NCBI RefSeq assembly: GCF_020179835.1
Contig: NZ_JAIUDA010000003.1
Span: 124,001-188,000 of the forward strand
Reading direction: 5' to 3'
Length of the DNA stretch: 64,000 bases
DNA from: Pantoea sp. alder81
GTDB lineage: Bacteria > Pseudomonadota > Gammaproteobacteria > Enterobacterales > Enterobacteriaceae
Shown here: piece by piece, positions 23,914 to 59,571 of the stretch
How positions within the stretch are numbered: position 1 is the first letter of the stretch
Layout of the letters: each line of letters opens with the position of its first letter
Program-made: the position numbers and the translations under genes
Notes under the pieces: model-generated
Told to the model about the DNA's origin: nothing
The model's input: only the letters and a program-made list of their open reading frames with translations
The model's database searches: none

Positions 23914-24687
23914 ATGCTGATGGTTATCTCGCCAGCGAAGACACTGGATTTTGAAAGCCCGCTGGCGACTCAGCGCTTTACGCAGTCAACACTGTTAGAA
24001 AAGTCACAACAGCTGATCGATGTTGCGCGCGATCTCTCACCGGCGCAGATCGGATCGCTGATGGGCATCAGCGACAAACTGGCGCATCTGAATGCCGATC
24101 GCTTCAATCAATGGCAGCCGCCCTTCACGCTCGACAATGCCCGTCAGGCGATTCTGGCGTTTAAAGGTGACGTGTATACCGGCTTGCAGGCTGAGACGTT
24201 CAGTGAGGCGGATTTCGATTTCGCTCAGCAGCATCTGCGCATGCTGTCCGGTTTATACGGCGTGCTGCGTCCGCTGGATTTGATGCAGCCTTACCGTCTG
24301 GAAATGGGCATCAAGCTGGCCAACCCGGCAGCGAAAGATCTCTACGGTTTCTGGGGTGATTTACTGACGCAGAAGCTGAATGATGCGATGGCCGAACAAG
24401 GCGATGAGGTGCTGATCAACCTCGCGTCCGATGAGTACTTCAAAGCGGTGAAGCCGAAGCAACTCAACGGTGAGTTGATCAAGCCGGTGTTCCTCGATGA
24501 GAAGAACGGCAAGTTTAAAGTGATCAGTTTCTACGCCAAGAAAGCGCGTGGCCTGATGAGCCGCTATGTGATTCAGAACCGCCTGAGCAAGCCAGAGCAG
24601 CTGAAACAGTTTGATGTCGATGGTTATTTCTTTGTGGCTGATGAGAGCAAGGGTAACGAACTGGTGTTTAAGCGCCGCGAGCAATAG
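23914..24687 (+). CDS. yaaA: Peroxide stress protein YaaA (DUF328)
   Basis: A 257-residue cytoplasmic protein. In E. coli it is OxyR-induced, binds DNA and limits intracellular free iron under H2O2 stress. Family motifs are [16 protein letters not shown] at the N-terminus, [33 protein letters not shown] and [14 protein letters not shown]. The start ATG has AAGGA 8 nt upstream. It is divergent from talB and marks the core-genome side of the T6SS island. Confidence 0.95.
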
Positions 24688-34042: not shown

Positions 34043-35230
34043 TTATCCCTGCTGATATTCGCGTATTACACCGCTATGAGCCGTTTTATCCTGGAGCATG
34101 ACCAATTGGGGTTGATGAGTTGCATTAAATTGCTCACTAGCACAGATCAGCAACATGTTGCCTGCTGCAGATAACGGCTTACCCAATGAACGATCGAGAT
34201 GGTGAGTATTTTTTTCATTAATTAAATATCCGTCCTGATTCAGCCTCACAACCGCATCGACTTCCGCTTCTTGAGACAGCTGGCTTAACCAGACAAAGAA
34301 GGGCTGCTGTTGGCTGATATGACCCCACAATAGCGATTCAGGCAAAGCATCCTCTGACTGTTGCCAACGATTAGGTCGATGAATGGCAGCGACAGGTTTC
34401 AGGTGCTGAGGCTGTTTAATGTGAGGTAATGCGATTAATGCTGCACTCACCACTTCGCTGCTTTCGGCCACTGGCGAGAGCTGCAGCTCAATTTCAATCG
34501 ATAACACCAGCGAAGCGCTGATACCGCCATCCAGCCAGCTATCGATCCACATCAGACCGTCGCCCTGATGGTCAATTACAACGTCATTAAAAGGCAATTG
34601 GAGTTGTTTTAGCGTTCGGCCCACAGCGGCACGCATTGCCATATCACCCACCGTTTCGTTATGCCTGACACGCACATAACAAGGCTCAGTAAAACGTTGA
34701 GTATCAAGGGAAGCTAAGACCTGTTTTAGGTGTAACGTTAACTGCTCACCATAGTAATGCGAGTCGTCTGTTGTCACAGAGGGTAAAAATAAACGAACAC
34801 TTAATGGCTTACCTACAGCCTCTATAAAGATTGGTTTTAATTCAGGCTGTTGAGTTGACAGCAATTTCACTAAGTTATGGTTCGCCAGCGGCGTATGATA
34901 TGCAGTGTCGAGTAATAAAACCGGTTGTTGACCATGATCAATTAAAGCGGCCTCAGTGGCATTACGTACTCCATTCCACTGCTCAGCATATTCCCTTTGA
35001 TTCTCATAACGGCGTAATCGCAGGCTAAAAACAATGACGCCAATTACCAATGGAGCAATGAGTATAAATATTTTTAACTGCGGCGAAAGTGATGAGAATA
35101 AGTGAGGGTGATATCTTTGCACCAATCCTATCAATAGTGTAATCAGTAACGGGAGTACAACTCCCTTTTTTTGCTTTGGCCTTAGGGGTATCGGCTTGGG
35201 TTCAGGCAACTCATTAAGATTCACAGGCAT
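34043..35230 (-). CDS. T6SS-linked membrane protein of unknown family
   Basis: A 395-residue protein I do not recognise. It has a proline-rich N-terminus (LPEPKPIPLRPKQKK), two transmembrane segments at about 24-38 and 53-71, and then a cytoplasmic domain of about 320 residues. It lies 3 bp upstream of tssM in the same operon, immediately downstream of the effector block. Stretches such as DTAYHTPLANHNLVKLL and CYVRVRHNETVGDMAMRAAV give no family to name. The position suggests a membrane-complex accessory protein; this is inference. Confidence 0.6.
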   Translation of the reverse strand: MPVNLNELPEPKPIPLRPKQKKGVVLPLLITLLIGLVQRYHPHLFSSLSPQLKIFILIAPLVIGVIVFSLRLRRYENQREYAEQWNGVRNATEAALIDHGQQPVLLLDTAYHTPLANHNLVKLLSTQQPELKPIFIEAVGKPLSVRLFLPSVTTDDSHYYGEQLTLHLKQVLASLDTQRFTEPCYVRVRHNETVGDMAMRAAVGRTLKQLQLPFNDVVIDHQGDGLMWIDSWLDGGISASLVLSIEIELQLSPVAESSEVVSAALIALPHIKQPQHLKPVAAIHRPNRWQQSEDALPESLLWGHISQQQPFFVWLSQLSQEAEVDAVVRLNQDGYLINEKNTHHLDRSLGKPLSAAGNMLLICASEQFNATHQPQLVMLQDKTAHSGVIREYQQG

Positions 35231-35246: not shown

Positions 35247-35300
35247 TAGCACCGGGTAGCGAGTAGTAAAAATCACCACTTTCCATAAGGGTAAGTTTTT
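35247..35300 (-). repeat. Copy 1 of the repeat covering the 3' end of the DUF2931-like genes
   Basis: The sequence starting TAGCACCGGGTA and running through the gene 3' ends (ATCACCACTTTCCATAAGGG) recurs at 36181-36234 with few differences, including bases after the stop codon. Conservation beyond the coding region points to a segmental duplication, not a shared protein motif. Confidence 0.75.
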
Positions 35301-35917
35301 CCCTCTACAAATTTTTTGGCCGCAGCAGACAATTTATAGCCTCCTTTATAGGCCCCAAAATTTTTACAGAAGGTCAAATCATTTCCATTTACCGTTTCTC
35401 CTTCGGCAATCTGAATATTTTCACCACCATTAATATCTGGCGTATTGAACCAAGCGCGAACCTTACCCTCAGGAGCAACGCCGATAACCATATTATTTCG
35501 ATAATAATCACCTAAGGGCGTCGCTATGGGTTGACGCATCAACTTCCAAACCTCAGATGGAAATTCCAGGGTTGTCTGATAAACTTTTTTATCTACAAAA
35601 GATTTCCAGCATATTTGCATCCATTGCGGTGGCATCTTGCCTTTGTTAGCTATAGCAGTACTCCTCAGTATAATCTTTCTCCAGGCGTTGACACTCATAC
35701 TGTCCGCAGTCGTGAGATCAGGCGCGTAGTTTTGATTTAAATATCCATCAGTATCAAGAAATCGTACATAGGTCACTTGGGCAGGAAGATAGCTTGGATA
35801 CACAAATACATATGTCCATTCGTCGTAAGGTAATGGCGGATTTTTTGGTGCAGCAGAACAAGTATAGCTAAAGATTATAGTACAATAAAAAACATTCAAC
35901 TTAAGGGACACGCTCAT
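35273..35917 (-). CDS. DUF2931-like periplasmic protein, copy 1 (probable lipase immunity protein)
   Basis: A 214-residue protein with an N-terminal hydrophobic export signal (about residues 1-22, possible cleavage around SYTCSAA). The core is close to the second copy at 36207: WTYVFVYPSYLPAQVTYVRF, TTADSMSVNAWRK, IANKGKMPPQWMQICW, and the final GKTYPYGKW. DUF2931-type proteins often accompany DUF2235 T6SS lipases. It follows a decayed copy of the effector 3' end rather than an intact effector, so it may be an orphan immunity gene. Confidence 0.65.
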   Translation of the reverse strand: MSVSLKLNVFYCTIIFSYTCSAAPKNPPLPYDEWTYVFVYPSYLPAQVTYVRFLDTDGYLNQNYAPDLTTADSMSVNAWRKIILRSTAIANKGKMPPQWMQICWKSFVDKKVYQTTLEFPSEVWKLMRQPIATPLGDYYRNNMVIGVAPEGKVRAWFNTPDINGGENIQIAEGETVNGNDLTFCKNFGAYKGGYKLSAAAKKFVEGKTYPYGKW

Positions 35918-35920
35918 TAA

Positions 35921-36175
35921 TTACAGCCTCCCACCATTAAGATCAGAACAAGATCTCTTCCATTGTTCACCGGGGCGATCTACAAACCAAATGATTTATA
36001 GGCTTTTACTGTCCCCCGTAATTTCCATCTTACTGTTGAGCATTACACTGTTCCAGTTACGGCGCAGAGAATAGACTTTCAAAAAGGTTCATATCCTCAC
36101 AAGAAAGTTCGGTTACATAACCACCTTAACGAATCGCTCCTTACTGACTTAATAGCATTACAAATATGGAAAGTA
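35921..36175 (-). pseudogene. Decayed duplicate of the 3' end of the PAAR-DUF2235 effector gene
   Basis: Reading the minus strand in shifted frames gives GGYVTELSCEDMNLFESLFSAP, then, after a frameshift, NWNSVMLNSKMEITG...SKSL-stop-IIWFVDRPGEQWKRS..DLNGG. This lines up with the end of the intact effector (GGKATEFTQSEINAIAKEYVHCSANWN, VIVNKSGEII, LIGFVNRPCDNWKRAIYDINGN). At least one frameshift and several in-frame stops are present, so it is not translated as an effector. The remnant ends at TAA 35921, directly before DUF2931 copy 1, mirroring the intact effector-immunity junction. Confidence 0.8.
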
Positions 36176-36180
36176 TTATT

Positions 36181-36234
36181 TAGCACCGGGTATCGAGCAG
36201 AGAAAATCACCACTTTCCATAAGGGTGGGTTTTT
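36181..36234 (-). repeat. Copy 2 of the repeat covering the 3' end of the DUF2931-like genes
   Basis: Counterpart of 35247-35300: the sequence starting TAGCACCGGGTA and the final codons of the DUF2931-like gene are shared, marking one edge of the duplicated unit. Confidence 0.75.
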
Positions 36235-36845
36235 CCTCTGATAGCAGAAAGTAATTCTTGAGAAGATGGATATCCGTCTTTAAACGCCATTTTATTCTTG
36301 CAAGTCGTCAACTTACTGTCACTTACCGTTTTAACTTCACCAATTAGAATATTATTCTCACCGGGCATGTTAAACCAGGCTCGAACTTTTCCACCAGGGG
36401 CTAAACCAATGACCATATTATCATGATAATATGGCCCCATTGAGGCGGGTACTGGCGTGCGCATCATAGACCAAACCTTTGGCGGAAATTCGATTGTTGT
36501 TTGATATACTTTTTTATCCACCAACGAATCCCAGCAAAACTGCATCCATTGCGGTGGCATCTTTCCCTTATTAGAAATGGCAGATCGACGACGAATATCG
36601 CGCCTCCATGAATTGACGCTTTCTCTGTCCTCAGTAGTTAAATCAGGCAACGGATTAGTGTTCAGATAGCCATCTGTATCAAGAAACTGTACAAATGTTA
36701 CTTCTGCAAATAATGCTTTTGGATAAACGAAAACATAGCTCCAGTTTTTGTACGGTAGTGGTGGATTTTTTTCTTTAGCGTAAGAGAATGAAACCCACAG
36801 CATCAATAAATAATAAATCGGCACTCTTGGCAAAAATTTAGTCAT
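36207..36845 (-). CDS. DUF2931-like periplasmic protein, copy 2 (probable immunity to the adjacent lipase)
   Basis: A 212-residue protein with a Sec signal peptide (cleavage likely after VSFSYA). It shares with copy 1 the motifs WSYVFVYPKALFAEVTFVQFL, SNKGKMPPQWMQFCW and the C-terminal GKTHPYGKW. Its ATG overlaps the effector stop (ATGA), the coupling expected of an effector-immunity pair. A periplasmic location fits protection against a phospholipase acting on membranes from the periplasmic side. Confidence 0.7.
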   Translation of the reverse strand: MTKFLPRVPIYYLLMLWVSFSYAKEKNPPLPYKNWSYVFVYPKALFAEVTFVQFLDTDGYLNTNPLPDLTTEDRESVNSWRRDIRRRSAISNKGKMPPQWMQFCWDSLVDKKVYQTTIEFPPKVWSMMRTPVPASMGPYYHDNMVIGLAPGGKVRAWFNMPGENNILIGEVKTVSDSKLTTCKNKMAFKDGYPSSQELLSAIRGKTHPYGKW

Positions 36846-38677
36846 TGAAGATTCCCGTTAATATCATAAATTGCTCTTTTCCAATTATCGCAAGGCCTAT
36901 TGACAAATCCAATTAATTCCGATGCTTTAACTGCATGAATTATTTCACCACTTTTATTGACTATGACCGCATTCCAATTAGCAGAACAATGTACATACTC
37001 TTTAGCAATAGCATTAATTTCACTTTGAGTGAATTCCGTTGCCTTGCCGCCATATCTAGCTGCTTTAGAGAGCATCATAGCCTTTTCAAGACAAGTGGTT
37101 AAATTTTCAGGCACACTAAATCTTGGTGAAACTGCACTAACGAAGCAAGCACCCGCATCCTTTGCGGCATCTAACATCACATGCAAAGAGATATTTGATA
37201 ATGAGTTCTTTACCTCGCGCTTTAACGTGATGGCAGAACCCATCCTCTTTTTTCTTCCGCGTTGGTTTTCAGGTACAAGTTGATCCTGCCAGCTATGAAT
37301 TTCAATGTCATTATCGATGGTGAGTGGATATATAGCGGAGTATTTTTCAAGTTCCAACAAGGCTTCACTTGATTTTTTAAATGATTTTGAATCTTTGACA
37401 TCCCGTTCGATATCTTCCGTGGTAAATTCAGGCCGCGAAAGAAACACATTACTTTCCTCTAAAGGATTATAGCCTCCACCAATGTCTGAGTGCACACCGG
37501 GGAGTGATATCTCTGGATAGGAAGGTTTAATGCTGTTAAGAGAAAAATTATATCGACATTCATGCATAGCAGTAATTTGAAACACTTTATCTGCAATACC
37601 AATGGGTAAATAAAGATCTACACTTCCATTTTTATTATCATGTGGGCTAAAGCCATCTGAGATTGTGCCAATCGCGGCGACTGTATCAAAAAGCCCCAGG
37701 AATCGGCATTTATCAATGGGTAATGCCGTGCTTCCTTTATAATTATTTTCATTCAGGATTGCACTAAACATTCTCTTTATGTCTTGATCATGCTTAAAAA
37801 CACGATTCGCGAAGTGACGCGCTGCCGCAGCACCTCGGCTAAAGCCGAAAATATCGAATTTAATCTCATTTATCACTGCGGAAGGATTCTCGTTGAAAAA
37901 TACCTTTAGCGCAGCACTGATCAAATCAATAGCAAAATCAGTGTTTCCTACAACACCCGTTTCTAGCAAGCCAATAGCCATGCCAATTTTGTTATCACCT
38001 TGGCTATTTCTTGTTCCAATACCGGGGACATAAATGCCAAGTTGGCTATCACCATTGGGTTGAGGGCTTACATCATAAAGTTCATGCAAATAAGAAACAT
38101 TTGAAAAATACCCGTCATAGCTCGTCCTGCCAAAATCACCCGGTTTGCCAAATTCATCTGCCCGACATTGCTTCGCTATTGATATTGCCTCTTCATCACT
38201 AAATCCTTCATCTGCTGCGCTGCAATTCTCAAGCCGATCACGAGTATTTTCAGCATTGTTACCTGTCCCATCAAAAAATACGCCAATGACCAATGTAATG
38301 GCGTCAACTCCAGATTTCGGCTTTTTACTTGCTTGCGCATGCTGTTCAGGTTCACCTTCTTTCACCGCAGAAGATGCCAATGTTGTTTTTGATGCCTGCC
38401 CAGGTGAAATCACAGTATGATTGGAGCAGCCGCAGGTAACAGCACTGCCATGAACAGCAAAAGGAATGCCGTTCACTTTGGTGCCCGCCATTCCAGCACC
38501 TGTTGTAATAGTACCGGTCTGCTTACAAGCTGGGCACCAGACTTTATCCCCCTCACGTGCGACTGGCGTGCCATGCACAGTATGGTTTTCCAGCCCCTCA
38601 AGAATTACACCTCCGGTGCTGGTCTTGTCGCCTTTTAACGCTACCGGTTTGCCATTTAATGTAGGTCTGTTCGCCAT
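36842..38677 (-). CDS. PAAR-domain T6SS effector with DUF2235 (Tle1-like) lipase domain
   Basis: A 611-residue 'evolved' PAAR protein. The PAAR spike tip spans about residues 1-90 (GDKTSTGGVILEG, CPAC, VHGSAVTCGCSNHT) and is followed by a charged linker. The DUF2235 alpha/beta hydrolase begins at about 125 with VFFDGTGNN. The probable catalytic triad is Ser280 (GFSRG), Asp331 (LGLFDTV) and His396 (PGVHSDIGGGY). By family this is a Tle1-type phospholipase delivered on the VgrG tip into the rival's periplasm. The start is ATG 38677 with AAGGA 8 nt upstream; the longer frame to 38734 is rejected. DUF2931-like genes follow directly. Confidence 0.88.
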   Translation of the reverse strand: MANRPTLNGKPVALKGDKTSTGGVILEGLENHTVHGTPVAREGDKVWCPACKQTGTITTGAGMAGTKVNGIPFAVHGSAVTCGCSNHTVISPGQASKTTLASSAVKEGEPEQHAQASKKPKSGVDAITLVIGVFFDGTGNNAENTRDRLENCSAADEGFSDEEAISIAKQCRADEFGKPGDFGRTSYDGYFSNVSYLHELYDVSPQPNGDSQLGIYVPGIGTRNSQGDNKIGMAIGLLETGVVGNTDFAIDLISAALKVFFNENPSAVINEIKFDIFGFSRGAAAARHFANRVFKHDQDIKRMFSAILNENNYKGSTALPIDKCRFLGLFDTVAAIGTISDGFSPHDNKNGSVDLYLPIGIADKVFQITAMHECRYNFSLNSIKPSYPEISLPGVHSDIGGGYNPLEESNVFLSRPEFTTEDIERDVKDSKSFKKSSEALLELEKYSAIYPLTIDNDIEIHSWQDQLVPENQRGRKKRMGSAITLKREVKNSLSNISLHVMLDAAKDAGACFVSAVSPRFSVPENLTTCLEKAMMLSKAARYGGKATEFTQSEINAIAKEYVHCSANWNAVIVNKSGEIIHAVKASELIGFVNRPCDNWKRAIYDINGNLQ

Positions 38678-38705
38678 CGTTAATGTCCTTATTTGAGAAG
38701 GGAAT

Positions 38706-39650
38706 TTAATTAATGGGAGATGAACTGTTAACAACGCAACGGAAAGTCATAGCGAGGGGTAAATCTCCATCATTATCAGGGCTCATGTTAGTTCTAACCA
38801 CAACAACTCCCCGACCCGGACCTGATATTTCATCTCCACGTATCACTTTGGTATGCTTACCATCGTAATTTTTCCACGTTGGATTTTCAGGGCCTTGAGG
38901 ATCATTTTTCGCTGAGTGTTGATAATAATCTGGATCATACCAATCTTTAACCCACTCAAATCCATTCGTACCCATATCATATAATCCGATTGGATTTGCT
39001 GGATAACTCCCTACTGGTAAAGCACTCAGAGACCCAATAGTTATGTTGTTTTTCTTAGCCCAAACATCTCGATCTTTGGATGTTGCAACATTATTTTTTT
39101 CTCCATTAACATGCCATTTTCCATCATCAGTTGGTACAACCAGATATTTCCCCTTACTACGAGCCGCATATTCCCACTGAGCTTCAGTGGCTAATGAAAT
39201 CGGCAATTTTGATACTCCTGCCAGCCATTCACAATATCCATTTGCTTCGTACCAGTCAGCATGAGCTGGCATATTTGGTATTTTATTCAACGAGTCCCAT
39301 TCACTTTGCATCACAGAATCTTGTCGATTTTTTTTACCGGCCTGTTTCAAGTAGTATTGAAACTTTGAGTTAGTAACTTGATATTTACTTATTGAATATG
39401 AACTAAGCTCTACTTCATGCAATGGCTTACTATCTTTCTTAGCGTCTAAAGGTAAATGTTCATCATAATGTTCAACGCCGAAGTCTCCCATCATGAACGA
39501 CCCACCGTTGATGTATACAAAATTCGACTTTACTTTATTAATGAAAGTTGACTTAGCAATCTCTTCTTGCGTGGTTGAATCTAAAGAAAAATTATCACAT
39601 CCACTCAAAGTCAATAAGCAGACAAATGGGACACATAAGCGAACTATCAT
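38706..39650 (-). CDS. FGE/SUMF1-fold inner-membrane lipoprotein, paralogue 4 (subfamily 1)
   Basis: A 314-residue lipoprotein (lipobox LTLSGC) with Asp at +2, the Lol-avoidance residue, so it is expected to stay in the inner membrane facing the periplasm. The body has the formylglycine-generating-enzyme fold: GGSFMMGDFG, SKYQVTNSKFQYYL, LATEAQWEYAAR, GLYDMGTNGFEWVKDWYD and terminal TFRCVVN. The segment RGDEISGPGRGVVVVRTN stands where true FGE has its CxxxxC copper-binding cysteines, so catalysis is not expected. It is most like paralogue 2 (40687). It is the last of four in tandem and lies 28 bp before the PAAR effector. Confidence 0.75.
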   Translation of the reverse strand: MIVRLCVPFVCLLTLSGCDNFSLDSTTQEEIAKSTFINKVKSNFVYINGGSFMMGDFGVEHYDEHLPLDAKKDSKPLHEVELSSYSISKYQVTNSKFQYYLKQAGKKNRQDSVMQSEWDSLNKIPNMPAHADWYEANGYCEWLAGVSKLPISLATEAQWEYAARSKGKYLVVPTDDGKWHVNGEKNNVATSKDRDVWAKKNNITIGSLSALPVGSYPANPIGLYDMGTNGFEWVKDWYDPDYYQHSAKNDPQGPENPTWKNYDGKHTKVIRGDEISGPGRGVVVVRTNMSPDNDGDLPLAMTFRCVVNSSSPIN

Positions 39651-39691
39651 TATCTTTACCCATGAAAGGCTGACATCATAACTTTAAAAAA

Positions 39692-40648
39692 TCATTGCAC
39701 CGGAGATGGACTATTTACAACACAACGAAATGTAAATGACATTGGCAAATCACCATTATTATCTGGTGACTCATTCGATCTACTAACTGTTATCCCTTTA
39801 CCTGGATTAGAAAGGTCAATATTCCTAACTACCTTGGCGTATTTACCATTGTAATTTTTATAAGTAGGATTTTCAGGTCCCTGAGGATTTTTCACTGGAG
39901 AGTGGCTGTAATACTTTGGGTCATACCAATCTTTGACCCACTCCGATCCATTACCTGACATATCAAAGAGACCTAATGGATTTGGGGGGTATCTATTTAC
40001 AGGCATGGTAGTCAGCGACCCAAAAGAGAGGTTATTCATTTTAGCCCATTCTTTTCTGTCCCTCGTAGTGGCAATATTAATGCCTCGACCATCACTTCCA
40101 ACTTTCCAGGTTCCATCATCAGTTCCTACTACTCTGTATTGACCTTGACTTCTTGCCGCGTACTCCCATTGAGCTTCTGTCGCTAATGAATATGGCAGAT
40201 GAGTGATATTTGATAGCCAAGTACAATATTTTTCTGCCTCATACCAATCAGCATGAGCAGGCATATTTTTTATTTTATTAAGACCATCCCAGTCTCTTTG
40301 AATTATAGTGTTTTTAGTTTTCGTTATTGGCAATCCATTCTCTTTGAGAAAATACTGGAATTCTTTATTAGTTGTTTTATATTTCGAAATTGAAAAACCA
40401 TCTAGCTCTACATAATGTAATGGCTTGCTGTCGCTATTGGCATCAAGAGGAAGATGTTCTTTATAATGTTCAACGCCAAAATCACCCATCTGGAACGTCC
40501 CTCCCTCGACGTATACCAGATTTGAGTTTACTTCAGAAGTGAATGTTGAAATCGCAAGCTCTTTTTTCTTCATTGAATCTGATGAAAAATCGTCACATCC
40601 AATTAATGAAAGCAAAACGGTTAAGTGAATAGACAATCTCATCATCAT
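39692..40648 (-). CDS. FGE/SUMF1-fold inner-membrane lipoprotein, paralogue 3 (subfamily 2)
   Basis: A 318-residue lipoprotein (lipobox LSLIGC, +2 Asp) with the same FGE-like body: GGTFQMGDFG, LATEAQWEYAARSQG, GLFDMSGNGSEWVKDWYD and FTFRCVVN. Subfamily-2 markers shared with paralogue 1 (41675) are WDGLNKI, DGRGINI, YPPNPLG, PGKG and the terminal PVQ. Three ATGs in a row open the gene; the first (40648) has GGGG 6 nt upstream. The catalytic cysteine pair of FGE is missing. Confidence 0.75.
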   Translation of the reverse strand: MMMRLSIHLTVLLSLIGCDDFSSDSMKKKELAISTFTSEVNSNLVYVEGGTFQMGDFGVEHYKEHLPLDANSDSKPLHYVELDGFSISKYKTTNKEFQYFLKENGLPITKTKNTIIQRDWDGLNKIKNMPAHADWYEAEKYCTWLSNITHLPYSLATEAQWEYAARSQGQYRVVGTDDGTWKVGSDGRGINIATTRDRKEWAKMNNLSFGSLTTMPVNRYPPNPLGLFDMSGNGSEWVKDWYDPKYYSHSPVKNPQGPENPTYKNYNGKYAKVVRNIDLSNPGKGITVSRSNESPDNNGDLPMSFTFRCVVNSPSPVQ

Positions 40649-40686
40649 TTATTACCCCAAGTAATAAGCACTCCTTATTTAATACA

Positions 40687-41634
40687 TCACTGCACGGGAA
40701 TTATGGAGTTAACAACACACCGAAATGTATTTGCTATTGGCAGACGACCATTGTTATCTGGTGATTTATTATTTCTCACCACCGACTGGCCTCGCCCTGG
40801 CCCTGATACTTCATCTCCTCTCATTACCTTAGAATGTTTTCCATAGGGATTTATCCAAGTCGGTGTGTCCGGCCCTTTAGGATCTTTCTTGGCAGAATGT
40901 TTATAATAGTCAGGGTCATACCAGTCACTTACCCATTCAAATCCATTACTACCCATGTCATATAAACCCAATGGGTTAGCTGGATATCGTCCTACAGCTA
41001 TTGCGCTAAGCTCCTCAACTGCTATCCCGTTTTTCTCAGCCCAGTTTGAACGGTCTCTGTCAGTAGGGACGTTAACCCCCTTAAGACCATCGACTTTCCA
41101 GGTCCCATCATTTGTCGGAACTACCAAGTATTTTCCCCGACTACGTGCCGCATACTCCCATTGAGCCTCAGTAGCGAGTGAGAAAGGCAATTTCGACTCT
41201 TTTGCAAGCCAACCACAGTAATTATTAGCCTCATACCAATCACCGTGGGCTGGCATGTCACCAATTTTATTTAAAGAATCCCATTCCTCTTGCATCGCTG
41301 GGGAATCTCGCATTTTCCCTCCTGATTGTTTTAAATAAAATTGATATTCAGAATTCGTAACTTGGTATTTACTAATTGAGTAACTGCTTAATTCAACTTC
41401 ATGAAGTGGCTTACTGTCTTGATTCAAGTTTAGGGGTAAGATTACTTTGTTATGTTCAACCCCGAAGTCTCCCATCATGAACGTTCCACCCTTTACGTAT
41501 ACCAGGTTCGACTTTACTTTATTAATGGAAGTTGACGTAGCAATATCTTCCTGCGCGATTGAACCTGAAGAAAAATCATCACATCCACTTAAAGCTAATA
41601 AGCAGATAAATATAACACATAATCGCATAATCAT
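40687..41634 (-). CDS. FGE/SUMF1-fold inner-membrane lipoprotein, paralogue 2 (subfamily 1)
   Basis: A 315-residue lipoprotein (lipobox LALSGC, +2 Asp). It pairs with paralogue 4: both have WDSLNKI, GEVSGPGRG/GDEISGPGRG-type segments, YLVVPT and DMGSNGFEW. One difference from all the others is the replacement of the usual HYDEHLPLD-type loop by HNKVILPLN. The genes before and after lie 38-41 bp away. Confidence 0.75.
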   Translation of the reverse strand: MIMRLCVIFICLLALSGCDDFSSGSIAQEDIATSTSINKVKSNLVYVKGGTFMMGDFGVEHNKVILPLNLNQDSKPLHEVELSSYSISKYQVTNSEYQFYLKQSGGKMRDSPAMQEEWDSLNKIGDMPAHGDWYEANNYCGWLAKESKLPFSLATEAQWEYAARSRGKYLVVPTNDGTWKVDGLKGVNVPTDRDRSNWAEKNGIAVEELSAIAVGRYPANPLGLYDMGSNGFEWVSDWYDPDYYKHSAKKDPKGPDTPTWINPYGKHSKVMRGDEVSGPGRGQSVVRNNKSPDNNGRLPIANTFRCVVNSIIPVQ

Positions 41635-41674
41635 TTTTAATCCATGAAAGACAGAAACCCCTATAAATGAAAAT

Positions 41675-42637
41675 TCATTGCACTGGATGCGGGCTATTTA
41701 CTACACATCGAATAGTATAGGAAATTGGTAAATGGCCATTATTATCAATAGTTCGACTTTTTCTGGTTATGGTCGTTCCTTTTCCTGGATCCGAATATGA
41801 TATACCTCTTGCAACTTTCATTGATTTCCCTTCGAAATTTTTATATTTACTCTCTTTAGGCCCCTGAGGATCTATCTTTGATGAGTACTTATAATAGTTG
41901 GGATCATACCAATCCTTTACCCACTCATAACCATTACCCGACATATCATAAATACCGAGTTGGTTCGGTGGATAAATCCCTACTGGTAAAGCAGTTAATG
42001 TTTTCAATGAAATATCGTTTTTTTCGGCCCATAACTTCCTATCAATTAATGTCGAAAAGTTTATGCCCCTTCCATCTTTATCAACTTTCCATGTCCCATC
42101 ATTTGTTCCTACTACTAGAAATTTTCCTCTGCTACGAGCCGCATACTCCCATTGAGCCTCAGTAGCCAAAGAAAACGGTAAATTGGTTACCTTAGCTAAC
42201 CAGCTACAATATTGTTCGGCTTCGGTCCAGTCAGCATGTGCTGGCATGTTATTTATTTTGTTTAGCCCATCCCAACCTTTTTGATTAATTAGATCACCTG
42301 CTTTTCTTAACGTTAAATTTTCATAGCGAAGAAAATATTGAAACTGTTCATTAGTTGTTTTGAACTTCGCAATTGAATAGCTACTTAACTCAACTTCGTG
42401 TAATGGTTTACTGTCACTATTACTATCAATAGGTAAGTGTTCATCCAAATGCTCAATACCAAAGTCCCCCATTTGAAACTTCCCCCCCTGAACATATACA
42501 ACATTCTCTTTAATGTTTTTCGTAAATTTTGATATTGAATCGTTTTTGCTCTTCGCTCCTTCATCACGCATTGAATTATTATCACACGAAACCAATAAGA
42601 ATGAAGATATAACAAACAGTTGCAAATTAATTTTCAT
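41675..42637 (-). CDS. FGE/SUMF1-fold inner-membrane lipoprotein, paralogue 1 (subfamily 2)
   Basis: 320 residues from ATG 42637, preceded by AGGGG. The longer frame to 42670 would bury a complete lipoprotein signal (MKINLQLFVISSFLLVSC) and overlap the effector gene, so it is rejected. Lipobox LLVSC has Asp at +2. It has the FGE-like body with GGKFQMGDFG, WDGLNKINNMPAHADW, DGRGINF, DMSGNGYEWVKDWYD and terminal IRCVVNSPHPVQ. It starts 7 bp after the 752-residue effector candidate, making it the prime candidate for its cognate immunity protein. Confidence 0.75.
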   Translation of the reverse strand: MKINLQLFVISSFLLVSCDNNSMRDEGAKSKNDSISKFTKNIKENVVYVQGGKFQMGDFGIEHLDEHLPIDSNSDSKPLHEVELSSYSIAKFKTTNEQFQYFLRYENLTLRKAGDLINQKGWDGLNKINNMPAHADWTEAEQYCSWLAKVTNLPFSLATEAQWEYAARSRGKFLVVGTNDGTWKVDKDGRGINFSTLIDRKLWAEKNDISLKTLTALPVGIYPPNQLGIYDMSGNGYEWVKDWYDPNYYKYSSKIDPQGPKESKYKNFEGKSMKVARGISYSDPGKGTTITRKSRTIDNNGHLPISYTIRCVVNSPHPVQ

Positions 42638-42644
42638 TTCACCC

Positions 42645-44903
42645 CTAAACATTATATGTCCTTTTGTCATTTAGTGGATTAAAAGAATTTCCATTTGGAT
42701 AATATGGATTGGAATTAGTATTAAGGAAATACTCTTGAGTATTATTCATCACCAGAGCATAACCCCATGAAATATTTGTTTTAATTCTTGCGTAGATTTG
42801 ATCAAGTTCATTTGTGAGGCTTAATTCTAAATCATCGAATTCATTAGACCGGTTCCATGATTCGTCAAGAAATGCGCGAATTTCTTGTTCGACCTCATTA
42901 ATGGTGATTCCTATTATAGTAGAACCGTCATAAGTTCGATGTTGCATAATTTGGTTCCATTCACTTTTAGTTTGTATGCTGTGAAGAATGTTTATTATAG
43001 CTTTCTTTCGTGATGCATAAATTTCAAACATTGGCCCATAGGTTTTATGATCAAAATGATCATAAAACCCATGTCTAGTTAATAGGTAAAGAAGTATCCC
43101 CTTTGCTTCTGGCGTGTAATCAAGCAAATTCAATGGGTTGGAATTTATATTGTCAGCCAACTGATTTCTCTTTCTTGAGGAAGAAATTCCATTCTCAGCA
43201 TCAGTTATCACCGACGAAACATAACTGTTAAACTTATCATTAACATCTTCAACATCATCTACAAATTTATTTACCTCCTCATAAACGTTGTCCTTAAACT
43301 TAGACACTTGTAAAACACATAAGCGTGTAAAAGTTTTAAATGCATCTTCTGCAATAATTTCCAAATAGTGGTAGTTCAAGGCAAAGAGTTGATATATTAA
43401 CCATGAAGCAAAATTCTTAAAATGCTCATACCCCACTTCACAAATAAATGCCCCTTTAGCTCCAAGCCCAAAACAGAGACTAGCAGCAATTTTGAAGCAG
43501 AATTTGCCGTTGATGAAGTCACACTGGAAAGTAGCTCCTGCCCCTAACCCCGCCAAACCAGCAATACTACTGCCAATGGTGCAAAAATCGACATACTCAG
43601 CAGCAGCTTTTTTATCATCAGCGCTGGCATGGCGCTGATCGAGGGAGGACAATGGTTCTAACCATTGCATGCTGCCTTTCAAAAATGCCTCGGCACGAGC
43701 ACCACCAAAAGCTTCAGCGTTAATACTGACGCCTTCATCATTTTCATTCATTTGCTTTTGGAATTTTGCTCCAGTGGTTCTTCTTTCACTAAAACGCGGC
43801 AGCTTGTCACTTTTCTTACCTGTAAGAACCTGCTTAATACCGTCTTGACTCATAAAAGTGGTGACTTGCAACTGTGCTTCAGCCTGAACCGAAGCGCCTA
43901 CAAAGCCAACCAAGTCTGTATTCAGAATCAACCTGAGCATGCCCATATCGATGGGTGAACTGGATTCTGGTTCATATTTCAGTGGCCAACCTACCCGGTC
44001 GGGGTAAAAGTACTTAGCGTTAACTGTTCCGGAAGCGACATTAACAACGGCGCTGGCTTCCCCTTTATAACTTACCTTGCCATTATTGGGGTCCCATTTG
44101 CCTGACATTCCAACATTTGAAGTGAAGCGTAAAAATTGTGCGCCTGCCGAAATATCAATGCTGTGTGGTTTTCCATTTTCGTCACTGCCAAGACAATCGT
44201 TCCAACTTCCGGCCCACTCGACAAGCGTTTTGTCTATATCGATAAAATCAGCAGGTTTTGGCAACTTAACATCTTGTTTTTTTGGCTTAGGTATTTTTAA
44301 ATCGGTTAGTTGCTTACGTAGTTTTTTTAAGTCAACTCGCCCGTTCTGATAAATGCTTTCACCTGCTGATGTTCTGTCTTTACCACTAATTTTTACGTTA
44401 TGTCGTTTCCCTGTACCGAGATCGTCATAATAGGTTTTCTGCACATAAACATATCGACTCCCTGCCAATGCTCGGCCACCTCGGTTTGAAGTCCCTTTGA
44501 TGGGGATTAGCTCAACCACATCTTTATAGCCCGCACCTTTAGAAGCAAAATCACCTATACGTTTATTTAGTGCTTTTTGAGTGGACGCTAATTCATCCTG
44601 TGCTTTTTGCACCGCCTTTTCAGCCTCAGACAATTGACTTTTCTTGTCTGGTTGAGCGTATAACAAACCATACTTTTCAATGAGTGAGGAGTAATTTTCA
44701 TTCGCTTTGTGGTGATCATCTACACACAATAATAAATCAGTCCAGTGCTCATCAAACTCATGGCTAGCGGACTCTGCCAATAAAACCAATTCTTCAGTAT
44801 CCGGTTGAAAATAAAGCAACGTCGATTCATGTTCTACTTGAACGGCACTGTTTTCACTTTTATTTAACTGCCCTTCCGCCGCTGGCGTGGCTTTATCTGT
44901 CAT
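42645..44903 (-). CDS. VgrG-linked effector candidate of unrecognised family
   Basis: A 752-residue protein encoded 17 bp behind vgrG. There is no signal peptide. Residues 88-118 are a likely coiled coil. About 250-310 is beta-rich (AQFLRFTSNVGMSGKW, ASAVVNVASGTVNAKYF). Two glycine/alanine-rich hydrophobic stretches lie at about 440-458 (TIGSSIAGLAGLGAGA) and 468-489 (FCFKIAASLCFGLGAKGAF), with a further hydrophobic helix near 499-510. The C-terminal 240 residues are helical and acidic. I see no nuclease, lipase or peptidoglycan-hydrolase motif. The hydrophobic centre, plus putative inner-membrane immunity lipoproteins next door, suggests a membrane-active toxin; this is inference. Base composition is markedly A+T-rich compared with vgrG. 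Confidence 0.6.
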   Translation of the reverse strand: MTDKATPAAEGQLNKSENSAVQVEHESTLLYFQPDTEELVLLAESASHEFDEHWTDLLLCVDDHHKANENYSSLIEKYGLLYAQPDKKSQLSEAEKAVQKAQDELASTQKALNKRIGDFASKGAGYKDVVELIPIKGTSNRGGRALAGSRYVYVQKTYYDDLGTGKRHNVKISGKDRTSAGESIYQNGRVDLKKLRKQLTDLKIPKPKKQDVKLPKPADFIDIDKTLVEWAGSWNDCLGSDENGKPHSIDISAGAQFLRFTSNVGMSGKWDPNNGKVSYKGEASAVVNVASGTVNAKYFYPDRVGWPLKYEPESSSPIDMGMLRLILNTDLVGFVGASVQAEAQLQVTTFMSQDGIKQVLTGKKSDKLPRFSERRTTGAKFQKQMNENDEGVSINAEAFGGARAEAFLKGSMQWLEPLSSLDQRHASADDKKAAAEYVDFCTIGSSIAGLAGLGAGATFQCDFINGKFCFKIAASLCFGLGAKGAFICEVGYEHFKNFASWLIYQLFALNYHYLEIIAEDAFKTFTRLCVLQVSKFKDNVYEEVNKFVDDVEDVNDKFNSYVSSVITDAENGISSSRKRNQLADNINSNPLNLLDYTPEAKGILLYLLTRHGFYDHFDHKTYGPMFEIYASRKKAIINILHSIQTKSEWNQIMQHRTYDGSTIIGITINEVEQEIRAFLDESWNRSNEFDDLELSLTNELDQIYARIKTNISWGYALVMNNTQEYFLNTNSNPYYPNGNSFNPLNDKRTYNV

Positions 44904-44920: not shown

Positions 44921-47443
44921 TTATTCAAAAAAGAGGTTAATTTTTTGTTGTTCCAGACCAAAATGTGATTGCGTATAGCCTTCAGCATCTGTCACACCGC
45001 GAACCACCGTTCCATCCTCGCTTTCAATACGATAAGGAACATGGGTTTTTGGCTGTTTCGAGGTTTTATCAATTACCTGGAATCGCTCACTCATCGGGTT
45101 CTGGAACTCAGGATCAGCAACTGTCATGGGTTGTAGCGCTTGCTCGAGTGATGCCGAGCCACCCCAACTGAGGTTGTCATTCTTGATATTGACGGCGCCA
45201 GGCGCACCCAACTCAATTGATCCATCTTTGATTTTGATATAAGCACCGCCGTTACTGACCAGCGTAATGCCCTGCGCAGCGTTAAGCGTGATTTCTCCAT
45301 TCACACTGTTGATGCTCATCGCCTGATCAGACTGCAACTGCATCGTGCCGGTTTGTGCCTGAATCGCCACCGGGCCACGAGCCGCAAAGATTTTAATGCC
45401 CATTTTTTGGGCAAACAGGCTAATTGCCTCGCCTGCTGCGACGGTAAAGCGCTTCATAATGCTGAAGTCAGCATTGGCTCCGGCGGTGGTTGTGAGATTT
45501 TGACCTGCTGTCATTTGCATATGCTGCGGTGTGGTTACCGCCACACCTGCTGGCGCGCTGGCGAGCAATGCCGAACCACTTAACTGGTTCAGTTCTGCTT
45601 GTAAGGCTTGTTGAGCCTCAATATCGGGCGTATCTGCGCCCGAAGTACCGACGCTCTGTGCCAACGCCTTTGCCAGGGCTAAAGCATTGTTCAATTGCGC
45701 AATTGCCGCCTGCATATCCAGAGCGTTACCTTGCCCTTTGGGTTGACCATCCGCACTAATAAACAGCCCTTTCCCCGCACGAATCGCGCCCCAGCTGTCA
45801 CTGCGTAGTTCAAAGCCTTCGCCACGCTGGGTGCGTTCACCATCCACCAAGTGGCCAAGGTTCAACTGGCTCTTGCCGCCGTAGTCGGTGGAGAGTTTGA
45901 TGTGCTCTTTGCCGCGCTCATCTTCCATGCGCAGCTTGTTGTTGGCCGGGGTGCGAATCACGTTGCGCTTGTGGTTGGCGGCGCTGACGTGATCTTCATT
46001 GCGCGAGTCGTGCAGCGCATAAGCGATATAAGGACGATCGGGATTGCCCGCTTCGAAGGCGATCGCCACTTCGGTGCCCGCGATCAGCGGCATATGCCAA
46101 CCGTAAGTATCGCCGCTGTACGGTTTTGCCAGACGCACCCACAGGCTTTCGTAACCGGTTTTCCACTGTGTCAGGTCGAAGTCAAACTTCACCTTGTAAC
46201 GACCGCTCTCATCCAGATGCGCGTAGGTGTCATTTTCAGTCACGCTAGTAACGCGTGCCTGCAAGGTCCCGGCGATGGTGGGTCGTTTGAGCACTTGCGG
46301 GCGATAGCCCACGGTTTCGCTGTAGGGAATGCCTTGCCAGCTGAGCGTAAACGACGCGTCACGTCCGCCTTGAGCGCTAATCGCAGTGATCACCACGCCC
46401 GCGGTAAACAACGGTGGCACATCGCCGATGATTTCCAGCATCTGCCCCGGTTGCAGTGTAGCCGCGTTGCTGGCACCGCTCAGTTGATGCTGCGCGTTGA
46501 GCAAACGTTCGTGGCGCAAGCGGGCATAAAAGGCACCGGTTTCTGTTTCGGCGTCCTGCTGCGCGCCTTGCGTCAGGTAGTTATCGCTGTAGCGATAGAC
46601 TTCGCCGTAAGCGGTGCTGTCGGCACCGGCATCACCATCGGTGAGCAGGCTGTTTTGCGCATCGCGATAGTTGTAATCTTTGACTTTGACCGCCTGGCTC
46701 ACCACCTGATGGCTGCTGCTGAGCTTCCACACCGATTCGGTGGCGCCATCGTTCATGCCAGAGAGTGCACGCAGCGGCAATGACACATCAAACTGATAGA
46801 ACTGCTGGTCGTCAGCGAAAATCACGATCTCTTGCTGCATGCGGCTATCGGCTTCAAAGCGATACCAGATACCCACTTCAGACAGCAGACGCTCGATAAA
46901 CGCCAGATCCGATTCTTGCCACTGCATCACCTGCTCGCGACGCGGATAAGTGCCACGCAGTCGGAATTCAAACTGCCAGCCTTCAAACTGGTGATTATCA
47001 CGCAGGATCTGTTCAACGATCTCCGGCACCGACTGGTTCTGGAAAATCGCCGGACGGCTGGCATTGCCCAGCAGCGCCAGCCGTGGCTCCAGCGTGGCCT
47101 GATAGCGGGTCTCATCCAGCGATGAAGAGAGGCGCTGGAACTGAGTGATCACGCCATGCACGATGCGCGGTGATTCCATGCTCGGCAGAGAAAAGCCCGC
47201 TAGTTGCATACCCGGCGCATTGAAACTGAAGCTGGCGTTTTTCAGCAGCATCTGTTGTGGCGTAATGCCGCTGTCGAGGCTGCTAAAAATGATTTCATAA
47301 CCATACAGACGACTCAGCGCTTCATCCCCTTTAAAGGATTCCACATCCAGCGCCGCTGCACCGCCCTCCACCTTGAGGTTATAACGGTTCATCGAGCCAC
47401 TTAAGGTCTGGCCGATTTTTGTCGCGATATCTGCCAGCGCCAT
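44921..47443 (-). CDS. tssI: T6SS spike protein TssI/VgrG with transthyretin-like tail
   Basis: An 840-residue trimeric spike. The N-terminal gp27-like part (LYGYEIIFSS, WQESDLAFIERLLSEVGIWYRFE) is followed by the gp5 OB-fold (GRYKVKFDFDLTQWKTGYESLWVRL) and the DUF2345 beta-helix near 600-760 (ITLNAAQGITLVSNGGAYIKI). The last about 70 residues form a transthyretin-like domain (PYRIESEDGTVVRGVTDAEG), a type known to load effectors such as Tle1. Its ATG overlaps the clpV stop by one base. Both cargo modules lie downstream in the same direction. Confidence 0.93.
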   Translation of the reverse strand: MALADIATKIGQTLSGSMNRYNLKVEGGAAALDVESFKGDEALSRLYGYEIIFSSLDSGITPQQMLLKNASFSFNAPGMQLAGFSLPSMESPRIVHGVITQFQRLSSSLDETRYQATLEPRLALLGNASRPAIFQNQSVPEIVEQILRDNHQFEGWQFEFRLRGTYPRREQVMQWQESDLAFIERLLSEVGIWYRFEADSRMQQEIVIFADDQQFYQFDVSLPLRALSGMNDGATESVWKLSSSHQVVSQAVKVKDYNYRDAQNSLLTDGDAGADSTAYGEVYRYSDNYLTQGAQQDAETETGAFYARLRHERLLNAQHQLSGASNAATLQPGQMLEIIGDVPPLFTAGVVITAISAQGGRDASFTLSWQGIPYSETVGYRPQVLKRPTIAGTLQARVTSVTENDTYAHLDESGRYKVKFDFDLTQWKTGYESLWVRLAKPYSGDTYGWHMPLIAGTEVAIAFEAGNPDRPYIAYALHDSRNEDHVSAANHKRNVIRTPANNKLRMEDERGKEHIKLSTDYGGKSQLNLGHLVDGERTQRGEGFELRSDSWGAIRAGKGLFISADGQPKGQGNALDMQAAIAQLNNALALAKALAQSVGTSGADTPDIEAQQALQAELNQLSGSALLASAPAGVAVTTPQHMQMTAGQNLTTTAGANADFSIMKRFTVAAGEAISLFAQKMGIKIFAARGPVAIQAQTGTMQLQSDQAMSINSVNGEITLNAAQGITLVSNGGAYIKIKDGSIELGAPGAVNIKNDNLSWGGSASLEQALQPMTVADPEFQNPMSERFQVIDKTSKQPKTHVPYRIESEDGTVVRGVTDAEGYTQSHFGLEQQKINLFFE

Positions 47444-57349: not shown

Positions 57350-58636
57350 TTAAGCTTTCATCAAGAACTTACGCAGTTCAGCAAAGTCCGCCGTCATATT
57401 ATGCGACAGCAGTGGCAGCTCAGCGCGCTCTGCCAGCTCTGGCGGCAGCGGCAGTTCCTGACCCAGAATCTCGTCCACGCTCTCTTTGAACTTGGCCGGA
57501 TGCGCGGTGCCGAGGAACAGGCCGAACTCGCCTTCCTGCAGATTGTCACGCAGCATGCGATAGGCAATCGCCGCGTGCGGCTCAGAGATGTAGCCAATTT
57601 CTGCCAGCTCACGCATGGTGGCTTTGGTGGTCTCATCCGATACCGCACCCGACACCAGATCGGTCAGGCGCCAGGTTTTACGACGGAACAGCTCTTCGAC
57701 GCGCGGCCAATTGTTAGGCTGGCTAACGTCCATGGCGTTCGACAGGGTTGCCACTGTCGCATTTGGCAGCCATTCGCCCTTATCAAGGAAGCGTGGCACG
57801 GTGTCGTTAGCGTTGGTGGCAGCGATAAAACGCTTGATCGGCAAGCCGAGGGATTTCGCCAGCAGGCCAGCTGTCAGGTCGCCAAAGTTACCGCTTGGTA
57901 CTGACACCACCAGCTGATTACGCTGCTCTTGCGGCAGCTGCGCCACCGCTTCGAAGTAATAGCAGATCTGCGCCAGCAGACGGCTGATGTTGATTGAGTT
58001 CGCTGAGTTCAGGCCAATCGCCTTCTTCAGCTCTTCATCGTCAAACGCCTGCTTCACCAGCGCCTGGCAGGCATCGAAATCGCCTTCCACTGCGATGGTT
58101 TCAATATTGCCGCCCAGCGTACAGAACAGTTTCTCCTGCAGCGGGCTGATTTTGCCCTGCGGATAGAGAATCACCACGCGCACGTTTTCCATGCCGTAGA
58201 ACGCATGGGCCACGGCTGCACCGGTGTCGCCTGAGGTCGCGGTCAGAATGGTGATCTGCTCATCGGCACCCGACACATAAGAGAGCATCTGCGCCATAAA
58301 ACGGCCGCCGAAGTCTTTGAACGCCAGGGTTGGGCCATGGAACAGTTCGAGGCAGGCCACATCAGCACTGACTTTCGCCACCGGCGCCGGGAAAGCAAAG
58401 GCGTTTTTCACGCGCTCAGCCAGCTGGTGTGCAGCCACTTCATCACCAATATAGGCAGAGAGGATTTTGCTGCTGCGGCTGACGAAATCCATCTCCAGCA
58501 TCGCATCGATGTCGGTCAGTTCGAATTCCGGCAGTTCGAGCGGGAAGAACAGCCCTTGCTGCGAGCCGAGGCCCTGTTTAACGGCCTGAGCAAAACTAAC
58601 CTGCTCGTTGTGATCCTTAAGGTTGTAGAGTTTCAT
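57350..58636 (-). CDS. thrC: Threonine synthase
   Basis: A PLP enzyme turning phosphohomoserine into threonine, 428 residues. The PLP lysine lies in GPTLAFKDFGGRF. TATSGDTGAAVAHAFYG and VPSGNFGDLTAGLLA form the cofactor phosphate and substrate loops. It is the last gene of the thr operon, 3 bp after thrB. Confidence 0.97.
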   Translation of the reverse strand: MKLYNLKDHNEQVSFAQAVKQGLGSQQGLFFPLELPEFELTDIDAMLEMDFVSRSSKILSAYIGDEVAAHQLAERVKNAFAFPAPVAKVSADVACLELFHGPTLAFKDFGGRFMAQMLSYVSGADEQITILTATSGDTGAAVAHAFYGMENVRVVILYPQGKISPLQEKLFCTLGGNIETIAVEGDFDACQALVKQAFDDEELKKAIGLNSANSINISRLLAQICYYFEAVAQLPQEQRNQLVVSVPSGNFGDLTAGLLAKSLGLPIKRFIAATNANDTVPRFLDKGEWLPNATVATLSNAMDVSQPNNWPRVEELFRRKTWRLTDLVSGAVSDETTKATMRELAEIGYISEPHAAIAYRMLRDNLQEGEFGLFLGTAHPAKFKESVDEILGQELPLPPELAERAELPLLSHNMTADFAELRKFLMKA

Positions 58637-58639
58637 GCG

Positions 58640-59569
58640 TTATCCCAAGTTACGTGCGCCAGCCGTATCAAGACGGCAGATATGGACGAAGCCTTCATCG
58701 TTCTGCAGATAGTGCTGGCTCAGCCAGTCTGCCATCCGCTGTGCCGTTGCCATCTCGTTGCAAACGGCGAAAAGTGTCGGGCCGGAGCCCGAAATACCGC
58801 AAGCCAGTGCGCCGATATCGGCCGCCGCTTTACGCGCGTCGGCAAAGCCTGGCAGCAGCTTGGTGCGGTAAGGTTCGGCAATCACATCCTGCATCAGTTT
58901 AGCTGCCAGCAGCGGCTGACGGGTATGACAGGCGTGAATAAAGCCGGATAACAGGCGGCCATGCTTGATGGCATCTTCTTTGCGGTACTGTGCAGGCAGA
59001 ATCGCGCGCGCTTCTGCGGTCGAGACTTTGATGCCCGGATACGCCATCACCCACAGCCAGTCTTCAAAGCACGGCACCTCCTGACTGATGATCCCGTTCT
59101 CTTCAATCATCAGCTGCACACCGCCGAGGAAGCATGGCGCGACGTTATCAAAGTGCACGCTGCCGGAGATACGCCCTTCCAGTTCGCCCATCAAGGCCAA
59201 CAGTTCGGTATCGCTCAACGGCTTGCCGCAGAACTCGTTCATCGCCATCAAACCGGCCACCACCGAGCAGGCGCTGGAACCCAGGCCTGAACCGATCGGC
59301 ATGTTCTTTTCCAGCGTCATCGCCACCGGAACCTGTTTACCAATCGCCTGGCAGAAACGTTCCCAGCACTGATAAACGATGTTCTCTTGCGGATTGGTGG
59401 GCAGCTTGCTGACAAAGCGCCCGGTGTTCACCAGGCTGAAGCTGTCGGCCGCTTCGACTGATACGCAGTCACCCAACAGGGTGCCATCCACCGGCGAAAC
59501 CGCCGCGCCCAGCACATCAAAGCCGACGCTGACGTTACCTATCGAGGCCGGTGCATAAATTTTTACCAT
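58640..59569 (-). CDS. thrB: Homoserine kinase
   Basis: A GHMP-family kinase phosphorylating homoserine, 309 residues. The GHMP ATP loop is [17 protein letters not shown], with [15 protein letters not shown] at the N-terminus and [11 protein letters not shown] near the end. The second of two ATGs (59569) is chosen: it is 7 nt from GGGAG and gives MVKIYAPAS, as in E. coli (310 residues). The first ATG overlaps the thrA stop. Confidence 0.96.
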
Positions 59570-59571
59570 CA

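Follow-up and report, generated by a model that had tools for sequence, protein, structure and literature searches.

A four-gene array of FGE-domain lipoproteins behind a VgrG-linked effector of Pantoea: a probable immunity array of the Tse3/Tsi3 kind

Introduction

An immunity family of the type VI secretion system (T6SS) whose members resemble the formylglycine-generating enzyme (FGE) is said to have been described by Lopez and colleagues in 2021, in the Tsi3/Tse3 pair of Acinetobacter baumannii. Here we analyse a stretch of 64,000 nucleotides from Pantoea sp. alder81 (contig NZ_JAIUDA010000003.1, positions 124,001 to 188,000; the whole of it is called the window below), in which four tandem genes for FGE-domain lipoproteins, numbered F1 to F4 in the order of transcription, stand behind the gene of a VgrG-linked effector candidate of 752 residues, EFF752. 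In our judgement the locus is probably an effector-immunity module of the T6SS, of the Tse3/Tsi3 kind, in which F1 would be the cognate antidote and F2 to F4 would serve mainly as immunity to sister alleles of the effector, retained or gained in the course of sequential displacement, F2 and F4 going back to one older duplication or allele pair.

Several described systems are close to this locus. The effector Tse3 of A. baumannii appears in Table 1 of PMC6833914 as a protein of 1001 aa with no conserved domain, a GXSXG motif and an unknown function. Arrays of immunity genes built by sequential displacement of effectors are known from Vibrio cholerae, according to the relevant passages of Kirchberger et al. 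(2017; PMC5361080), and the same model is named for a few A. baumannii loci in a passage of PMC6833914. For the T6SS of Pantoea and Erwinia, De Maayer et al. (2011; PMC3235180) describe vgrG islands in their main text, where the words sulfatase, sulphatase and formylglycine occur 0 times. An excerpt of PMC13340143 also mentions an FGE-fold gene, there as part of a different kind of poly-immunity cluster. We found no paper on a divergent array of a single FGE family in the open-access literature, most subscription papers lying outside that search. The locus is a clear new example, of which both the kind of antidote and the kind of gene array have already been described.

Like Tsi3/Tse3, the window encodes an FGE-domain protein next to a functionally uncharacterised T6SS effector. 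Relatives of EFF752 occur in 17 Acinetobacter loci, where all 17 have an FGE neighbour and 15 are ORFs (open reading frames) of 905-1006 aa; their size would suit Tse3 as it is described in that table, so that they may be related to it. In contrast to these loci the effector of the window is shorter (752 aa), and its immunity genes run in the same direction as the effector gene, whereas the arrangement is convergent in the 17 Acinetobacter loci. Unlike Tsi3/Tse3, the window holds four immunity genes, of three or four divergent types.

Results

The four FGE genes occupy 38706-42670 on the minus strand, separated by gaps of 38-41 bp, and share one orientation with vgrG and the EFF752 gene (Table 1). 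The longest ORF of F1 opens at 42670, and its likely start as a lipoprotein, MKINLQ, is at 42637. All four match PF03781 (FGE-sulfatase), with E values from 1.2e-32 to 2.2e-38 and 114-133 bits against a cut-off of 23.3, and each has a lipoprotein signal with Cys-Asp at its end (CDN or CDD). The EFF752 gene begins 17 bases past the end of vgrG, whose product matches VgrG families. An earlier interpretation of the window from its letters alone (the sequence-only reading) had placed four tandem FGE-fold lipoprotein genes here, behind a VgrG-linked effector; the ORFs, the PF03781 matches and the lipoboxes confirm the first part, and the position and family of vgrG the second. The GC content of the effector and immunity genes is 36-42%, as against 55-60% for vgrG, tssM and clpV, so that the locus resembles the Pantoea and Erwinia vgrG islands, which in the main text cited above likewise show a deviating GC content at vgrG inside the core T6SS locus.

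The lipoproteins are predicted to be retained in the inner membrane. An aspartate directly after the lipidated cysteine has this effect in Enterobacterales (the +2 rule), and such an aspartate is present in 113 of 120 close homologues (5 are without a lipobox match), followed mostly by Gln (51) or Asn (47); the lipobox pattern is noisy in distant FGEs, many of which show no match, and the statement on Asp at +2 is limited to the 120 close homologues. Catalytic FGE has a closely spaced pair of active-site cysteines (Cys336/Cys341 in the human enzyme). After its lipidated cysteine F1 has only C155 and C322, 167 residues apart, all 120 homologues have exactly two cysteines past residue 45, and a closely spaced pair was found neither in F1 nor in any of the 120. 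As there are only two cysteines and these are far apart, the formylglycine active site is missing, and the FGE fold of F1 to F4 is likely to be a binding scaffold and no enzyme.

Other roles of the fold were weighed and rejected. FGE-fold proteins are generally known to act as sensors of threonine phosphorylation, as TagR does, or as true formylglycine or PvdO-type enzymes, and FGE and PvdO chains top the list of solved relatives of the four proteins. It is nevertheless most improbable that F1 to F4 are such regulators or enzymes. Besides the spacing of the cysteines, the NCBIfam PvdO model scores only 68-78 bits against a cut-off of 500; TagR is encoded together with the kinase-phosphatase pair PpkA/PppA, and no Ser/Thr kinase or phosphatase of the threonine-phosphorylation pathway is present among the 20 and 10 proteins scanned, which are part of the ORFs. 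Neither role, moreover, predicts a strict linkage to one effector family.

Such a linkage is what we observe. In searches that used the effector alone as query, the effector family is sparse in the class, order and genus samples: with the window's own genome included, it was matched in 2 of 369 genomes of the class (1 of 368 others), 3 of 295 of the order (2 of 294) and 2 of 61 of the genus (1 of 60), and further in 6 of 249 genomes of the genus of P. ceruminis and in 17 of 149 of the genus of A. halotolerans (Acinetobacter). An FGE gene adjoins the effector relative in all 27 non-window genomes matched in this way, or in 25 of 25 once G720 and G735, which had become search centres owing to an FGE match, are set aside. 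The same holds for all 6 plasmid records with an effector relative, by profile, and in 3 of them also by their own annotation, the remaining 3 being unannotated at this place. Single-sequence searches give lower bounds: the genus search missed the effector of genome G341, which a profile found and which is not counted in the 25. Approached from the FGE side, among the best 80 loci of a scan the effector is adjacent in 25 of the best 35 and in 4 of the 45 weaker ones, the cut at 35 having been set after the list was inspected. The link of the FGE genes to the 752-aa effector, as far as gene neighbourhood can tell, is strong. It supports well the earlier proposal of an immunity array tied to this effector, with a genomic link elsewhere, and it agrees with the published immunity family. 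A T6SS locus of Hafnia alvei (L007, 4713-10843) has an FGE gene near a PAAR gene; its stretch holds no relative of EFF752 and has a different ORF of 737 aa after a VgrG-like ORF. What looked like a fusion of three FGE domains in one protein of 1003 aa (L129) was dropped, since the reading frame there runs across a gap of N in the assembly.

The same linkage bears on the gene next to the array, a PAAR protein fused to a Tle1-like phospholipase domain, whose ORF start is overlapped by F4. That the FGE lipoproteins protect from this phospholipase instead of from EFF752 has a next to negligible probability. In the fetched stretches of the 58 listed loci an ORF of more than 300 aa like the window's PAAR-Tle1 occurs in only 2 (L001 and L003), although a distant Tle1 would escape this comparison, and in both of these the Tle1-like gene has DUF2931 neighbours of its own; DUF2931 is reported as the immunity to Tle1 of V. 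cholerae in an excerpt of PMC13133936. Linkage follows EFF752, and the idea was rejected.

EFF752 itself matches no Pfam or NCBIfam family above cut-off. Of the candidates scored, 141 are homologous to it at E <= 0.001; it is 97% identical to an effector of Pantoea sp. EA-12 and 84% identical to one of Candidatus Pantoea formicae. Members of its family are often publicly named 'ATPase'; Pfam and NCBIfam show no ATPase domain in EFF752, and the name is probably a misannotation.

The comparison of EFF752 with its homologues P0002 and P0003 reveals a sharp change along the chain. In blocks of 50 residues the identity is 92-100% up to residue 500 and then falls to 34-64%, if the final two residues are disregarded; the switch shows its first mismatches at residue 508. 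Taken over longer parts, the two are 98-99% identical to EFF752 in residues 31-480 and only 58% and 50% identical in residues 521-735. When 100 aligned effectors are compared in all 4950 pairs, a like N part (at least 85%) goes with an unlike C part (at most 65%) in 14, and the reverse is seen in 0; the alignment holds 99 of 120 listed homologues, mainly short or redundant ones having been left out by eye. The C-terminal approximately 250 residues of EFF752 are exchanged between close alleles, residues 1-505 remaining nearly constant. An AlphaFold2 model of residues 488-752, built with 22 sequences, is all-helical (pLDDT 81, pTM 0.84), and the residues before it (441-490) are hydrophobic and rich in glycine. 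The killing activity may lie in the helical C-terminal domain, or it may lie in residues 441-490, with the helical end only setting specificity.

The FGE type appears to change together with the C-terminal allele of the effector, to judge from contigs of equal size. The FGE protein P0125, of the F3 type, and the effector P0002 come from contigs of 257732 nucleotides, both named Candidatus Pantoea formicae, and P0124, of the F2 type, and P0003 come from contigs of 33409. In a wider set of 52 effector-FGE pairs, related loci included, which comprises the window, the two equal-sized-contig pairs and the 49 loci that remained once repeated copies of a locus, L129 and any locus containing N or incomplete genes had been removed, the FGE distance correlates with that of effector residues 505-735 at r 0.80 and with that of residues 301-490 at r 0.77. 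The partial correlations are 0.42 and 0.27, respectively, and 0 of 1000 permutations reach either. The value for residues 301-490 indicates that co-inheritance explains part of the signal. The shift of FGE types with the effector allele favours one of two roles that the sequence-only reading had offered, a guard against the allelic toxins of rivals; for the other, in which each subfamily would recognise a different part of the toxin, no support was found.

The four lipoproteins are 54-71% identical to one another (F1 and F2 55%, F1 and F3 59%, F1 and F4 54%, F2 and F3 59%, F2 and F4 71%, F3 and F4 61%), whereas each is 85-98% identical to a protein elsewhere: F1 to P0122 (97%), F2 to P0124 (93%) and P0123 (92%), F3 to P0125 (85%) and F4 to P0121 (98%). 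Only 36-48% of the four-fold degenerate sites are identical between them (27/75 to 37/77; 27/75 for F1 and F3, 36/91 for F2 and F4), and these sites look saturated. In a tree of 61 rows, with 46 of 120 listed FGE homologues chosen by eye, F2 and F4 are joined with a support of 100/100, and F1 and F3 stand separately in an open fork. In a tree of 31 rows F4 and the F2 group form one clade at 100/99, with a path of 0.48 between F2 and F4, and F1 and F3 are joined at 81/65, with a path of 0.87. A tree in which adjacent genes were sisters, F1 with F2 and F3 with F4, was not seen.

F3 looks like a recombinant, or mosaic, over its N-terminal approximately 50 codons. Its residues 1-50 are 48-60% identical to F2 and F4 and 32-36% to P0125 of Candidatus Pantoea formicae, and past them it is 88-100% identical to P0125. 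In the numbering of F3, variable parts of the FGEs lie at about 101-125 and 251-300.

Tandem duplication of a two-gene immunity unit, by which F1-F2 would have been copied to F3-F4, was the origin put forward by the sequence-only reading for the alternating 2-1-2-1 pattern, on the strength of motifs confined to one pair or the other. Most of that list stands: genes 1 and 3 alone contain WDGLNKI, DGRGIN, YPPN, DMSGNG and PGKG, and genes 2 and 4 alone contain WDSLNKI, YLVVPT, DMGxNGFEW and SGPGRG. PVQ, also listed, is not specific, for it ends gene 2 as well. Among 115 outgroup homologues YPPN is present in 58 and SGPGRG in 37, and these two carry little grouping signal; WDGLN and DGRGIN are each present in 0 of the 115 and carry some. 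The firm sisterhood of F2 and F4 fits a paired duplication, as do these two motifs and the grouping of F1 with F3 in the smaller tree. That grouping is lost in the larger tree, however, and by identity F3 is no closer to F1 than to F4. A single event would give both pairs one age, yet they differ in identity and in path length, although unequal rates could mimic this. Every FGE type has its own close relative elsewhere, and among the arrays compared those with four whole copies (L031 and L146) do not alternate. Given the closer relatives elsewhere, the mosaic F3 and the weak union of F1 with F3, one duplication of a two-gene unit cannot be taken as established, and we regard it as unlikely. 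The half of the claim that concerns F2 and F4 is secure as to their kinship, and these two may stem from one duplication or be a pair of close alleles.

A simpler account would be that of dosage, with all four FGEs neutralising the same EFF752. The genes are of one family and form one apparent operon, and other arrays do contain copies that are 80-92% alike (L013, 81-87%; L021, 86-92%; L131, 80%). The copies in the window are only 54-71% alike, with four-fold sites as divergent as stated, and relatives of F2 and F3 appear alongside other effector alleles, all of which makes a generic amplification quite unlikely.

In the same-genus locus L147 (genome G341, 5408-10803) vgrG, an effector gene and an FGE gene are followed by a 5'-truncated copy of the effector, a 3' remnant, and then by a second FGE gene, whose product is 61% identical to that of the first. 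Over its first approximately 208 residues the remnant agrees near-perfectly with the full copy, and it is divergent beyond them, from a point that by alignment corresponds to about residue 533 of EFF752. Judged by this layout, L147 is a putative displacement fossil. Two further T6SS clusters of this genus, L146 (G349, 8052-11687) and L148 (G337, 8370-10161), contain four FGE ORFs and three FGE ORFs (one whole gene and two short pieces), respectively. The effector profile that finds both copies in G341 finds no relative anywhere in the genomes G349 and G337 at E <= 1e-5, and these two clusters are predicted orphan immunity arrays.

The fossil, the orphan arrays and the exchange of alleles are marks of the sequential-displacement model of V. 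cholerae. As in the arrays treated in the relevant passages of Kirchberger et al. (2017), the immunity genes of the window resemble one another less than they resemble genes of other strains, the 3' end of what would be a displaced effector is found (here in the related locus L147), and there are orphan immunity genes without an effector. Unlike those arrays, which are described as combining different immunity types, the array in the window is all of one family, and its F2/F4 pair resembles a duplication or a close allele pair.

Discussion

The module that we propose would work as follows. EFF752 would ride on VgrG into the periplasm of a rival, and F1, encoded directly behind it, would block it by binding the variable C-terminal domain where the inner membrane faces the periplasm. 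The effectors that belonged to F2, F3 and F4 would have been lost here or never present. A new C-terminal end would from time to time recombine, together with its own immunity gene, in behind the conserved 5' part of the effector gene, and through such recombination F2 to F4 would have been pushed downstream or acquired, F2 and F4 stemming from one older duplication or allele pair. They would then guard the cell against kin that still carry the older alleles.

A number of observations weigh against this picture. The pairing of P0124 with P0003 and of P0125 with P0002 rests on contigs of equal size and, in one case, on a common organism name, and the contigs of P0002 and P0003 may hold further FGE genes beside P0125 and P0124. 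The FGE distance is correlated, with the partial coefficient of 0.27, with the effector residues that precede the variable end as well, and the loci are not independent. In 10 of the 35 best FGE loci there is no effector relative in the fetched stretch, and in the window itself no effector remnant lies in the gaps of 38-41 bp between the FGE genes. Displacement alone does not predict the sisterhood of F2 and F4, be it a duplication or a close allele pair. The union of F1 with F3 at 81/65, and the motifs WDGLN and DGRGIN that only these two share, leave room for a paired duplication, and the approximately unbiased (AU) test rejects neither a single clade made up of all window types (p 0.08) nor a clade of F3 with F2 and F4 (p 0.28).

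A bolder version of the displacement reading, which we put forward tentatively and as rather doubtful, is that the array is a lookup table written in one family. Each FGE subtype would be the private antidote of one C-terminal allele, the array would record the alleles that the ancestors of this strain carried or met, and the exchanged domain would be a toxin domain of a sort not yet described, with the inner membrane as its place of action.

Immunity proteins of the FGE type and arrays formed by displacement were each known already; here both occur within a single protein family. The near-identity of effector alleles over about 500 residues, followed by their difference, makes the question of specificity directly testable, namely which residues of the FGE scaffold and which of the C-terminal approximately 250 residues of the effector set protection. 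About residue 505 lies the boundary between the conserved and the allele-specific parts. This effector family, the activity of which is listed as unknown, would probably act at the inner membrane.

The surrounding T6SS locus

The T6SS cluster lies on the minus strand between thrABC-type genes (57350-62034) and a yaaA-type gene (23914-24687). It runs from TssB, TssC, a TssK-type protein, DotU, an OmpA-domain protein, Hcp, ClpV and VgrG through the effector modules to IcmF/TssM, a TssA-type protein, TssF, TssG, TssJ and a gp25-type gene. In the effector region vgrG, the EFF752 gene and F1 to F4 are followed by the PAAR-Tle1 gene and two DUF2931 genes (35273-36845).

Table 1. Genes of the effector region, in order of transcription.
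Feature	Position	Strand	Evidence
vgrG, T6SS tip, first gene of the effector module	44921..47443	-	TIGR01646 and TIGR03361 above cut-off; Phage_GPD, T6SS_Vgr, DUF2345
EFF752, effector candidate, 752 aa	42645..44903	-	141 homologues, allele comparison, AlphaFold2 model
F1, FGE-domain lipoprotein, probable cognate immunity protein	41675..42637	-	PF03781, E 1.4e-34; CDN after lipobox
F2, FGE-domain lipoprotein	40687..41634	-	PF03781, E 1.2e-32
F3, FGE-domain lipoprotein	39692..40648	-	PF03781, E 2.2e-38
F4, FGE-domain lipoprotein, firm sister of F2	38706..39650	-	PF03781, E 2.4e-34
PAAR fused to Tle1-like phospholipase domain, second, separate effector module	36842..38734	-	PF05488, E 1.8e-17; PF09994, E 1.6e-16
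DUF2931 protein, candidate immunity to the Tle1-like effector	36207..36845	-	PF11153, E 1.6e-27
Second DUF2931 protein, candidate immunity to the Tle1-like effector	35273..35917	-	PF11153, E 4.7e-31

Directly behind the FGE array, at 35273-38734, the PAAR-Tle1 gene and the two tandem DUF2931 genes, with their candidate immunity function, are themselves a set of effector and paired immunity. The PAAR-Tle1 ORF has a TTG start, with an ATG at about 38677. The module is separate from the FGE array and has the same gene types as the Tle1/DUF2931 module of V. cholerae, as an excerpt of PMC13133936 presents it, with two copies of DUF2931 in the window.

At 34043-35230 lies the gene of a protein of 395 aa for which Pfam and NCBIfam give no match. 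In many of the related T6SS loci, L001-L004 and L130-L132 among them, its relatives immediately precede TssM, and by this conserved placement it is a predicted component, unnamed but conserved, of this type of T6SS.

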